Origin: Lactiplantibacillus plajomi
GTDB taxonomy: Bacteria; Bacillota; Bacilli; Lactobacillales; Lactobacillaceae
Direction: 5' to 3'
Assembly (NCBI RefSeq): GCF_005405405.1
Contig: NZ_BJDZ01000003.1
Span: 1-64,000, forward strand
Length of the DNA stretch: 64,000 nucleotides
Translations under genes and position numbers: made by a program
Notes under the pieces: generated by a model
Database searches by the model: none
Seen by the model: only the letters and a program-made list of their open reading frames with translations
Told to the model about the DNA's origin: nothing
Part shown: piece by piece, positions 3,762 to 27,311 of the stretch
Layout: every line of letters starts with the position of its first letter
Position numbering within the stretch: position 1 is the stretch's first letter

Positions 3762-3776
3762 AATTTTATCATCCAC

Positions 3777-3862
3777 AATAGCAACTGGGGTGCCAACTAC
3801 GGCTGAGATAATACCCATTGAACCTGAATCTGGATAATGCCAGCGCAGGAAGCAATGCTTTA
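3777..3862 (+). ncRNA. TPP riboswitch (thi box)
   Basis: The conserved blocks of the thiamine pyrophosphate aptamer are all present in order: CTGGGGTGCC, GGCTGAGATAATACCC, GAACCTGAATCTGGATAATG, CCAGCGCAGGAAGC. It precedes an intrinsic terminator and the ykoEDC genes. By analogy with other thi boxes, TPP binding should favour the terminator and shut off uptake when thiamine is plentiful. Confidence 0.95.
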
Positions 3863-3891
3863 TTTTGGGGAACCATCAAAGATGACTTAGC

Positions 3892-13454: not shown

Positions 13455-14078
13455 TTAAAACGCGCAGCGCCGGTTATAATAGCTCAAAAACGCGCGCTGA
13501 CTAGCCGCATCGACCGTGATCTTTGTCACACTCGTATTCTCCGGTTCCGGCAGGCTCATCGGGTCTTGGGGCTGTAAGACCGCTAGTGCCATCGCTTTAA
13601 CGGTAAACCCGTGGGTCACCACGATAACGTTATCGGTTGGAAACGCTTTGGCAGTTGCGGTTAAAAAGGCGCGTCCGCGTTGCACAACGTGGTCAAACGT
13701 CTCACCAGCGGTCGCCACGTCAACGTAACTAGGTAGCACGTCCTTGAGTAACGGGTCGAAGTACTGCGGGTAAGTCGCCAACAAGTCATCGTTGGATTGA
13801 CCGTCCCACTGCCCGTACGAAATCTCTAATAATCGCTCATCAGTTGTTAATGGTAAATCGTGACCGTGGTTCAAAATTGCGGCGGTTTCCTTAGTCCGTT
13901 CCAGCGGACTACAAATCAAACGGTCCGCAAAGCTAATATCAAAATCCGTGCGCAATTGCTGCGCTTGGCGTTGACCGACCGCGTTCAAGTGCGTAATGGC
14001 CGTGTTAATGGTCCCCTGCTTTAAATTTTGCGCGTTCGCGGTCGTTTGCCCGTGGCGGACGATGTAAAAGGTTGTCAT
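13455..14078 (-). CDS. Histidine phosphatase (phosphoglycerate mutase-like)
   Basis: 207 residues of the histidine phosphatase superfamily. The phospho-accepting His is in YIVRHGQTTANAQN, the second Arg in LICSPLERTKET and the second His in VIVVTHGFTV. Length and the lack of the cofactor-dependent mutase insertions point to a broad-specificity phosphatase (PhoE/CobC-like) and not to the glycolytic mutase. SD GGGAGG before the ATG. It is divergent from serC-serA. A role as missing phosphoserine phosphatase is possible but nothing in the sequence proves it. Confidence 0.85.
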   Translation of the reverse strand: MTTFYIVRHGQTTANAQNLKQGTINTAITHLNAVGQRQAQQLRTDFDISFADRLICSPLERTKETAAILNHGHDLPLTTDERLLEISYGQWDGQSNDDLLATYPQYFDPLLKDVLPSYVDVATAGETFDHVVQRGRAFLTATAKAFPTDNVIVVTHGFTVKAMALAVLQPQDPMSLPEPENTSVTKITVDAASQRAFLSYYNRRCAF

Positions 14079-14168: not shown

Positions 14169-14197
14169 TTGACAAAATGAGAACATCTTGCTAAATT
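14169..14197 (+). promoter_or_regulatory. Promoter of the serC-serA leader
   Basis: TTGACA (14169-14174), 17 bases, TAAATT (14192-14197). It lies 30 bases before the leader-peptide start, so the transcript would begin with the leader. Confidence 0.7.
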
Positions 14198-14226
14198 GTA
14201 ATCATGAAATTTAAGGAGTGGCTACG

Positions 14227-14295
14227 ATGGTAATTAATCAAAACGCTAACTTAATCGTCTCCTCCTGGTCTACACAGACATCTGTGTTGGCCTAA
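14227..14295 (+). CDS. Serine-rich leader peptide of the serC-serA operon
   Basis: 22-codon ORF with SD AAGGAG eight bases before its ATG. It encodes MVINQNANLIVSSWS then TQTSVLA and a stop. Codons 12, 13, 15 and 19 are Ser (TCC TCC, TCT, TCT), so slow serine charging would stall a ribosome at the SSWS cluster. The cluster overlaps arm 1 (14264-14270) of the downstream competing stems. The ORF is too short for a typical gene caller. By position and composition it is a cis-acting attenuation peptide; no other role is suggested. Confidence 0.75.
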   Translation: MVINQNANLIVSSWSTQTSVLA

Positions 14296-14409
14296 TTTCG
14301 CGTGAGCAAATCAGCCCTAGCATGGATGTTTCCCAACATTCGATGACCAGGGCGTTCAACCAAAACTACTAACCGTCCTGGTGGTCGAAACGACTACCAG
14401 GACTTTTTT
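14264..14409 (+). promoter_or_regulatory. Trp-like attenuator of serC-serA
   Basis: Four arms are visible. Arm 1 is CCTGGTC (14264-14270) inside the Ser codons. Arm 2 is GACCAGG (14345-14351). Arm 3 is GTCCTGGTGGTCG (14375-14387). Arm 4 is CGACTACCAGGAC (14391-14403) followed by six T. 1:2 plus 3:4 gives termination. 2:3 (ACCAGG with CCTGGT) blocks the terminator when arm 1 is masked by a stalled ribosome. No T-box consensus (GGGTGGNACCGCG) is present. Confidence 0.7.
14375..14409 (+). terminator. Attenuator terminator upstream of serC
   Basis: 13-bp stem with one G-U pair, AAA loop and TTTTTT, 47 bases before the serC ATG. Confidence 0.9.
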
Positions 14410-14455: not shown

Positions 14456-15532
14456 ATGCCAACGTATAATTTTTCCGCCGGTCCGGCCGTGATGCCCGCC
14501 GCCGTTGTTCAACAAATTCAAGCCGAACTACCGTCATTTCAAGGTTCGGGAATGAGTATCATGGAAATCTCCCACCGTTCCGACCTGTTCGACCAAGTGA
14601 TCAACGATGCGGAACGGGACTTACGCGACCTGATGCAGATTCCGGATAATTATCGGGTGCTCTTCTTCCAAGGGGGCGGGACGCTTCAGTTCACCGCCGC
14701 CCCGCTGAACTTAGCCACCGGCCATCACCACATCGGGTTACTCAATAGTGGCCACTGGGCGGAACGGGCAGCGGCGGAAGCTCGCCGGGTCGGGACCCAA
14801 GTAGATATTTTAGGCACTAGCGCCGCCAACCACTTCACGGCGCTGCCAACCTTAGATCAGCCAGTGACAGCCGACCTCGATTACGTCCACGTCACGACGA
14901 ACAACACGATTGAAGGAACCCTGCTGACCCAGTTACCCGCAACTGGAAACGTTCCACTGGTTGCCGACATGTCCTCTAATTTCTTAGGTCACCAGTATAA
15001 CGTCACCGACTTCGGTATGATCTTTGCCGGCGCGCAAAAGAACTTGGGGCCAGCTGGCTTAACCATCGTTATTGTCCGCGACGATCTCATCGGACACGCT
15101 CAGGACTTACCAAGTATGTTAGATTACCAACTCTTTGCGGATAAACGGTCGATGTTCAACACGCCGCCGGTCTTTGCCATTTACGCCGCTGGATTAGTAC
15201 TAAAATGGTTGAAAGCTCAGGGCGGGCTCGCCGCCATGGCCACCCGCAACCGCGAGAAAGCCGCGTTACTTTACGACTTCCTCGATCAATCGACGTTGTT
15301 CACTAATCCGGTCAAACCTAGCGACCGCTCAACAATGAACGTCCCGTTCGTCACCGGTAACGCCGCAACCGATGCCCAAGTGATTGCCGGCGCCGCTGAC
15401 CGCGGTTTACTGAACTTAAAGGGGCACCGCTTGGTTGGCGGCATGCGGGCCAGTCTGTATAACGCCATGCCAAAAGCTGGGGTTCAAGCCCTGGTTGACT
15501 ACTTAGCGGCTTTCGAAGCCCACCACGCTTAA
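14456..15532 (+). CDS. serC: Phosphoserine aminotransferase
   Basis: 358-residue PLP enzyme of class V aminotransferases that converts 3-phosphohydroxypyruvate and glutamate to phosphoserine. It begins with the hallmark YNFSAGPAVMP; the PLP-binding Lys is in FAGAQKNLGPAGL; the end carries GHRLVGGMRASLYNAM. Length is as expected. SD weak (GTAGGG). It is followed by serA 14 bases later, reversing the pathway order but making a two-gene serine operon. The operon sits behind the serine leader attenuator, which fits end-product control. Confidence 0.97.
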   Translation: MPTYNFSAGPAVMPAAVVQQIQAELPSFQGSGMSIMEISHRSDLFDQVINDAERDLRDLMQIPDNYRVLFFQGGGTLQFTAAPLNLATGHHHIGLLNSGHWAERAAAEARRVGTQVDILGTSAANHFTALPTLDQPVTADLDYVHVTTNNTIEGTLLTQLPATGNVPLVADMSSNFLGHQYNVTDFGMIFAGAQKNLGPAGLTIVIVRDDLIGHAQDLPSMLDYQLFADKRSMFNTPPVFAIYAAGLVLKWLKAQGGLAAMATRNREKAALLYDFLDQSTLFTNPVKPSDRSTMNVPFVTGNAATDAQVIAGAADRGLLNLKGHRLVGGMRASLYNAMPKAGVQALVDYLAAFEAHHA

Positions 15533-15546
15533 GGAGGAACTTTACG

Positions 15547-16716
15547 ATGTATCAAATTAAAACTTATAATGCCATTGCCCAGGCCGGACTGGACCAGTTC
15601 ACACCCGCCTACACGTTAAACCAAACCGACGACGCCGATGCGTACCTAATTCGGTCGGTTAACTTACACGACCAACCACTACCGAAGTCACTCAAAGTCA
15701 TCGCCCGCGCCGGTGCCGGGGTCAATAACGTGCCGATCGAACGGGCCACCGTTAACGGCACCGCCGTTTTCAACACCCCCGGTAGTAACGCTAACGCCGT
15801 TAAGGAACTGGTCATCGCCCTGCTCGTCATTTCGTCCCGAAACCTACTGGCCGCCGCCAGCTATTCGGCTAAGCACACCGAAGCCGACGTTTCACAACGG
15901 ACAGAACACGATAAAACCAAGTTTAACGGGACTGAATTAGCCGGTAAGACGCTGGCCGTCATTGGGCTGGGCCACGTGGGATCGTTAGTCGCCAACGCCG
16001 CCCTCAACCTCGGGATGACCGTTATCGGCTACGACCCGTACCTGTCAGCGGACGCCGCCTGGAACATTTCCAAGCAGGTCCAACGCGCCGCAACCTTAAC
16101 GGCCGCCGTTAAAAACGCCGATTACGTTACCGTCCACGTCCCTAAAAATGACGACACCGTCGACCTGATTGGCAGCGCCGAAATTGCCGCCATGCCAGCC
16201 GGTACCACCCTGTTCAACTACTCGCGAATCGGCATCGTCAATAACGCCGCGGCGGTTGATGCGCTAAATCAAGGACAACTCCGGCACTACTACACCGACT
16301 TTGGTGAACCGCAAATCGCTAACCGTGAGGATGTGACGGTCACCCCACACATCGGTGGTTCAACGATCGAAGCCGAAGTGAACGGCGCCACCCAGGCCGC
16401 CCGCACGATTATGACCTATCTAGAAACCGGCAATGTCAAGGCGGCCATCAACTTACCGGACCTGACCGTTCCGTTCAACGCCGCCTACCGGTTCACGGTC
16501 ATTCACGACAACGTTCCGAACATGGTCAGCCAAATCACCCAAAAAATTGCCGCAGCCAACCTAAACATCGCCACCATGGCTAACGCTGCTAAGCAGGGCA
16601 CGGCCTACACCATTATTGATGTCGACGACCTCGACCACCAAAGTAGTCAGCAATTGATCAAAACCCTAACTGCTATTCCGGCGGTTGCGCGGGTTCGGTT
16701 GCTTACCCATAAATAG
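15547..16716 (+). CDS. serA: D-3-phosphoglycerate dehydrogenase
   Basis: 389 residues, the short SerA form. It oxidises 3-phosphoglycerate with NAD in the first committed step of serine synthesis. NAD-binding motif VIGLGHVGSLVAN (about 138-150). Active-site Arg in NYSRIGIVNN, Glu in DFGEPQIA, His in VTPHIGGSTIEAE. The C-terminal ACT domain (about 315-389, starting YRFTVIHDNVPNMVS) is the usual serine-feedback site. Strong SD AAGGAGG. Co-transcribed with serC. No serB is in the window. Confidence 0.96.
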   Translation: MYQIKTYNAIAQAGLDQFTPAYTLNQTDDADAYLIRSVNLHDQPLPKSLKVIARAGAGVNNVPIERATVNGTAVFNTPGSNANAVKELVIALLVISSRNLLAAASYSAKHTEADVSQRTEHDKTKFNGTELAGKTLAVIGLGHVGSLVANAALNLGMTVIGYDPYLSADAAWNISKQVQRAATLTAAVKNADYVTVHVPKNDDTVDLIGSAEIAAMPAGTTLFNYSRIGIVNNAAAVDALNQGQLRHYYTDFGEPQIANREDVTVTPHIGGSTIEAEVNGATQAARTIMTYLETGNVKAAINLPDLTVPFNAAYRFTVIHDNVPNMVSQITQKIAAANLNIATMANAAKQGTAYTIIDVDDLDHQSSQQLIKTLTAIPAVARVRLLTHK

Positions 16717-27061: not shown

Positions 27062-27311
27062 TTCATATAAACGAACGAAGGGTCCTACCCCAAGTAACGG
27101 ATTAGCTGGGTGTCAGAAAGTCGGTGGTTGCTGCGAACCGATCAGGCTAAGCACGCTGAAATACAGTAGGACGTGTCCGGGGTCACCCGGCGGATAATAA
27201 CTAGACCCGTTAACTGCTAGTGAGAGGCGCACTTTTAACGCGCAATCTGGGTGGTACCACGGTCTAATCAATCGTCCCTGTTGTCAAATCGACAACGGGG
27301 ACGATTTTTTT
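27062..27311 (+). ncRNA. T-box riboswitch with tyrosine specifier
   Basis: The T-box consensus CTGGGTGGTACCACGG is at 27247-27262. In stem I, AGTA of the specifier-loop motif lies at about 27095-27100, and opposite it CTGAAATACAG places the codon UAC (27162-27164) in the specifier position, which reads tyrosine. The terminator (27270-27311, CGTCCCTGTTGTC / GACAACGGGGACG, then TTTTTTT) follows. Uncharged tRNA-Tyr should bind and allow readthrough into the transporter gene. Confidence 0.93.
27270..27311 (+). terminator. Regulatory terminator of the T-box
   Basis: 13-bp stem with seven T, 27 bases before the transporter start codon. Confidence 0.9.

Follow-up and report, generated by a model that had tools for sequence, protein, structure and literature searches.

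A probable serine-specific, ribosome-mediated attenuator family ahead of serC in the Lactobacillaceae

Enterobacteria control their his and leu operons by attenuators of the six-arm type, and Firmicutes are commonly regarded as T-box users. The leader described here lies before serC-serA in a window of Lactiplantibacillus plajomi (the whole stretch of DNA that was analysed, 64 kb), and it resembles the enterobacterial his and leu attenuators in having a leader ORF led by a Shine-Dalgarno (SD) sequence and carrying a run of cognate codons, a biosynthetic operon downstream, an intrinsic terminator, and a nested order of helices in which 1:2, 3:4 and 5:6 are set against 2:3 and 4:5. It differs from them in its serine codons and in its occurrence in Firmicutes, with no relation visible at the sequence level (none of the Rfam leader families matched), and from the his attenuator, with its seven consecutive His codons, in having 4 to 6 regulatory codons and one interrupting codon. 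Like T-box leaders (RF00230), it would place amino-acid genes of Firmicutes under the control of tRNA charging, but the sensor proposed here is the translating ribosome, whereas the T-box binds tRNA directly.

The mechanism class is known, including for His and for Leu/branched-chain amino acids (BCAA) in Firmicutes. Leader peptides for His have been predicted in bacilli upstream of hisZ and hisS* (PMC2965389), and these are likewise Firmicutes peptide leaders replacing a T-box, but they concern histidine and genes of the aminoacyl-tRNA synthetase family in bacilli. The ilv-leu operon of S. aureus has a Leu-rich attenuator peptide with experimental support, for which a T-box was considered and excluded, and the same work cites BCAA leaders that were predicted for L. 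lactis and Streptococcus (PMC5794164). Our leader shares with the S. aureus system the proposed ribosome-mediated attenuation in Firmicutes, the experimental support being that of S. aureus, and differs in that the latter concerns leucine/BCAA, other genes and another family. No earlier description of a serine leader was found in the open-access literature, to which the search was confined, in agreement with a previous sequence-only reading of this locus that knew of none in lactobacilli; within that literature, the serine specificity and this Lactobacillaceae attenuator family appear to be undescribed. Serine would gain a leader-peptide attenuator, a specificity for which we found no description and which can feasibly be tested directly in laboratory strains. 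The Lactobacillaceae are rich in T-boxes, yet a peptide leader retained across 15 genera appears to govern their genes for serine.

The arrangement of the locus (Table 1) suggests that the leader is very probably a ribosome-mediated transcription attenuator sensing seryl-tRNA charging before serC-serA, for which we infer a response to serine. The promoter and the SD-led ORF MVINQNANLIVSSWSTQTSVLA with Ser at codons 12, 13, 15 and 19, all named by the sequence-only reading, were confirmed, and so was its U-tailed terminator, found between the leader ORF and serC as a 13-bp stem followed by a T-run to 14409. The two serine-synthesis genes downstream were also found as claimed, serC scoring above the NCBIfam cut-off and serA having phosphoglycerate dehydrogenase (PGDH) as its best NCBIfam match, with a score below the full-length cut-off. 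The closest SerC homologues of the window were those of Lactiplantibacillus. When both strands of the window were searched for SD-led ORFs of 10 to 32 codons with the SS.S motif, the leader ORF was the only one, and the leader region folded better than all of 200 shuffled sequences (z = -4.87). Relatives carried TTGACA...TAAATT-like motifs at the equivalent position and a GGAG or GGAGG-type SD ahead of the ORF start, and they retained the terminator.

Table 1. Coordinates of the leader, its RNA arms and the downstream genes in the window
Feature	Position	Strand	Remarks
Sigma-70-type promoter	14169..14197	+	TTGACA 14169-14174, 17-nt spacer, TAAATT 14192-14197; 10/12 matches
Shine-Dalgarno AAGGAG of leader ORF	14213..14218	+	
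Leader peptide ORF, 22 codons, MVINQNANLIVSSWSTQTSVLA	14227..14295	+	Stop TAA 14293-14295
Putative regulatory Ser codons 12 (UCC), 13 (UCC) and 15 (UCU), around Trp codon	14260..14271	+	
Arm A5	14267..14277	+	Overlaps codons 14-17; pairs with A3, -12.7 kcal/mol; helix conserved
Arm A3	14279..14292	+	Partner A5 (via 14282-14292) or B5 (via 14279-14291)
Arm B5	14314..14330	+	Partner B3 (16 bp, -15.6 kcal/mol) or A3
Arm B3	14335..14354	+	Partner B5 or T5
Arm T5	14374..14388	+	Terminator 5' side; B3 partner in antiterminator
Arm T3 and U-tract of intrinsic terminator	14391..14409	+	T stem 14375-14403, -22.3 kcal/mol
serC, phosphoserine aminotransferase	14456..15532	+	NCBIfam TIGR01364, above cut-off
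serA-type phosphoglycerate dehydrogenase, short, ACT-like C-terminus	15547..16716	+	NCBIfam

As judged from the compared sequences, the conserved layout is one of six arms, in which the hairpins A5:A3 (14267-14277 with 14282-14292, overlapping the Ser-codon region), B5:B3 (14314-14330 with 14335-14353) and the terminator T5:T3 (14375-14387 with 14391-14403) are opposed to the alternative helices A3:B5 and B3:T5. The A3:B5 helix (14279-14291 with 14314-14328) has 13 bp and -14.9 kcal/mol, and B3:T5 (14340-14354 with 14374-14388) has 14 bp and -24.6 kcal/mol, in comparison to -22.3 kcal/mol for the terminator. Within the genus (18 species), A3:B5 was paired in 96% of cells, and both helix sets covaried: two-sided changes were seen at 11 pairs of the terminating set (shuffled mean 4.9), at 7 of the 13 pairs of the terminator stem, and at 6 pairs of the alternative set (shuffled mean 3.7). 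Across genera, each arm was tested for better pairing with its cognate partner, taken from the same leader, than with the corresponding arms of leaders in other genera. As the A, B and T hairpins had been picked by folding, this cognate test is unbiased for A3:B5, B3:T5 and the control pairs alone. Both A3:B5 and B3:T5 were cognate-preferred (p = 0.0002, 87 leaders), in 12 of 13 and 11 of 13 genera, respectively, while the mismatched control arm pairs showed no cognate preference in the same test. The terminator and antiterminator helices are mutually exclusive, as the comparison supports.

These arms suggest the following course of events. RNA polymerase would start at the promoter and a ribosome would translate the leader. 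With sufficient Ser-tRNA, the ribosome would reach the stop codon at the end of A3 and cover this arm, so that B5:B3 would form and T5:T3 would terminate transcription ahead of serC. When Ser-tRNA is scarce, the ribosome would stall at UCC-UCC-x-UCU and cover A5, upon which A3:B5 and then B3:T5 would form, no terminator would arise, and serC-serA would be transcribed. The placement of the codons against the arms is of the kind that such a course would need: the Ser cluster starts 1 to 8 nt ahead of A5 in 80 of 84 leaders, where stalling would place the ribosome over A5 and leave A3 available, and a ribosome at the stop would cover A3, beside whose end the stop codon lies in the window, with the stop inside A3 or at most 15 nt beyond it in 83 of 87 leaders.

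We also simulated the two ribosome positions by equilibrium folding with the ribosome footprint masked, assuming a footprint of 13 nt, kinetics being outside this model. With the RNA cut after B3, a Ser stall opened helix B by at least 3 bp in 52 of 87 leaders and strengthened it in none; with the RNA cut before T3, the antiterminator gained more than 1 bp under a Ser stall in 54 of 87 and lost in 2. In each of the two simulations, the states are not told apart for roughly one third of the 87 leaders. In the window, the RNA cut before T3 gave the antiterminator in both states without separation (11.9 versus 12.0 bp), and the RNA cut after B3 gave a clear switch for a stall at Ser13 (helix B from 14.3 to 1.2 bp), a weak one for Ser12 and none for Ser15, and thus the simulated switch of the window varies with the truncation point and with the assumed 13-nt footprint.

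A short ORF with a Ser cluster and a terminator was present ahead of serC in all 20 Lactiplantibacillus species with serC. Among 100 further serC loci sampled from other Lactobacillaceae genera, 73 carried an SD-led ORF with a Ser cluster in the 600 nt that precede serC and 27 were without leader, whereas the same search returned 1 of 100 on the reversed strand of the same regions and a mean of 1.1 (maximum 3) on shuffled ones. The leaders, collected from 15 genera in all, were chosen by their Ser motif, which inflates the conservation of the Ser positions but not that of ORF position, SD, stop and RNA features. Ser accounted for 23.6% of leader residues in comparison to 1.7% of codons 2 to 8, and the cluster had the form S-S-x-S in most leaders, with Trp (56), Lys (10), Leu (10), Arg (7) or Gln (2) as residue x (n = 85), and Ser was thus retained while the intervening residue drifted. 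The sequence-only reading would have been refuted by relatives that kept the terminator but not the ORF or its Ser codons; the opposite was seen.

A core covariance model of 39 nt matched 100 of 401 genomes of the family, with one match each, and 96 of these matches lay 114 to 686 nt upstream of serC on the same strand. Three of the other four were weak (E = 0.005 to 0.009) and came from genomes without serC, and the remaining one was strong (E = 1.7e-7) and came from a contaminated genome whose two serC hits are outside the matches listed. Beyond these four, the core model found no leader ahead of non-serC genes in the family, so far as its matches reach an exclusive link to serC, and no convincing match outside the Lactobacillaceae in 298 genomes of the order, an absence that is only as good as the model, which misses divergent members such as Periweissella. 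Weak matches were returned in Streptococcus and others, those inspected being mostly inside genes such as mraY. No comparable ORF was found upstream of serC in other families, sampled by class and order, or in other phyla; the three true positives of the class, order and phylum serC sampling are Lactobacillaceae. In general, the analysis points to a serine-specific ribosome-mediated attenuator family of the Lactobacillaceae whose anatomy and conservation are well supported by sequence comparison and which would respond to serine.

On the SerC tree, leader presence needed 5 changes in comparison to 24 for shuffled labels. A g23 species with a SerC that clusters among those of leader-bearing genera carries the leader; a g6 species with a SerC from a leaderless clade does not. 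Based on the tree and these two cases, the leader tracks the serC gene and probably moves with it. In L. daoliensis (L092 / L007), about 500 nt more than in its congeners separate the leader terminator from serC, and the serC loci L021-L024, L026 and L034, as well as loci in genera g3, g23, g31 and g34, had neither leader nor T-box.

The codon choice was strongly biased: of the 255 Ser codons that occupy the three Ser positions of S-S-x-S across the family, 251 were UCN, in comparison to a UCN share of 66% in the serC genes at these loci and 58% for 15 genes of the window, with UCC at each of the first two positions in 69 of 85 leaders in comparison to 15% in serC. In B. subtilis under serine starvation, ribosomes dwell at UCN and not at AGY codons (PMC3862929); the sinR sensor described there, like the serC leader as proposed here, reads serine starvation via slow UCN codons, but it works without a leader peptide or attenuator structure. 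The near-exclusive UCN use provides a natural test of selective tRNA-Ser charging. RNA constraints could contribute to the codon choice as well, among them the complementarity of UCC-UCC (14259-14266) to the leader's own SD: 67 of the 91 leader ORFs contain UCCUCC, which is paired with the SD in the minimum-energy fold of the window and in those of many relatives. Leaders with UCA-UCA-UCC exist, which indicates that this complementarity is not obligatory. A bolder proposal, which we regard as rather unlikely in its full form, is a serine attenuator new for any bacterium, tuned to the UCN-reading tRNA-Ser isoacceptors and travelling with serC, in which UCC-UCC may sequester the start of an untranslated leader and so add a self-setting step.

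The absence of a T-box at the site, which the sequence-only reading had stated, was upheld by Rfam, which returned no T-box or other family at the leader even with E up to 5, the sole match being at chance level and on the opposite strand; likewise, no RF00230 T-box was found upstream of serC in the window or at the serC loci of relatives. A T-box or riboswitch at the serC leader was therefore rejected for want of an Rfam match here or in relatives. This genome has about 33 T-box matches, 12 of them over the Rfam cut-off and none at serC; among those below the cut-off is one directly upstream of serS (G000:C19:44271-44458). Seryl-tRNA synthetase thus appears to be under T-box control and serine synthesis under that of a peptide leader, and such a pair, serving one amino acid in one genome, makes a clean case in which to ask why one sensor takes the place of another. 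No serine T-box was found ahead of serC in Clostridia or other Lactobacillales at the Rfam gathering score. Elsewhere in the window, a T-box match below the Rfam cut-off (27078-27282, + strand, 58.9 bits), which has both a terminator and the conserved GGGTGGTACCACG, precedes an ORF which starts MKKSATWRPVQLPEALTILFVMLAIMGIAVIKFG and is membrane-transporter-like.

Two alternatives concern the form of the RNA. That the leader is instead a metabolite-binding riboswitch or protein-bound leader with an incidental short ORF could draw on the strong conservation of parts of the core as RNA within the genus; we regard this as extremely improbable, given that Rfam gave no match, that the conserved RNA consists of the coding part and simple hairpins with sequences drifting under compensation, and that the leader retains its SD and start, the Ser cluster and the place of its stop. 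The earlier reading had favoured a trp-like attenuator of four arms, in which the arm over the Ser codons pairs with arm 2 (here B3) and arm 2 pairs with T5. Its first helix is probably the 8-bp complementarity between UCCUGGUC (14263-14270, lying on the Ser codons) and GACCAGGG (14345-14352), and this is present in the window, but 15 of 18 relatives have one pair disrupted, no pair shows a two-sided change within the genus, and A5:B3 is not cognate-preferred across genera (p = 0.10 to 0.13). Since A3:B5 and B3:T5 are cognate-preferred while A5:B3 and the controls are not, the design is that of his and leu with six arms, and the four-arm layout, which would now be very improbable, was rejected; what stands of the earlier proposal is a serine leader peptide whose translation would control termination before serC-serA.

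Two further alternatives keep this six-arm anatomy and change what it senses. In erm leaders, antibiotic-induced stalling occurs at the nascent peptide, and the serC leader might similarly be driven by general translation slowing or by another trigger of this kind rather than by seryl-tRNA charging. The -SSxST- peptide core is alike across genera, with which peptide-specific stalling is compatible; yet the residue between the Ser codons varies freely among W, K, L, R and Q with Ser kept, the UCN bias exceeds what a peptide would require, and the leader is found only ahead of serine synthesis genes, all of which make such a trigger very unlikely. It is scarcely probable, too, that the leader senses both Ser and Trp (UCC UCC UGG UCU) and so reports the demand of tryptophan synthesis on serine. 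Such dual sensing would explain why 56 of the 85 aligned leaders, that of the window among them, have UGG amid their Ser codons, but Lys, Leu, Arg or Gln stands there in the other 29, in genera sharing the same RNA design, and leaders with AAG show a joint change of A5 and A3 (AAGUC with GGCUU), from which the intervening codon appears to be set by the RNA stem. Sensing of seryl-tRNA charging alone is the reading we prefer.

Divergent to the leader lies a histidine-phosphatase gene (13455-14078, - strand), with a cobC-like best NCBIfam match of 104 bits and a match to the phosphoserine phosphatase PspA of 81 bits, below the cut-off. Of the 73 loci with a leader, 50 have a gene of this type in the 600 nt preceding serC, in comparison to 1 of the 27 leaderless loci. 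No SerB above the cut-off was found in this genome, and the gene beside the leader is a candidate for the missing phosphoserine phosphatase. The window also contains a TPP riboswitch (3776-3870, + strand) that scored above the Rfam gathering score.
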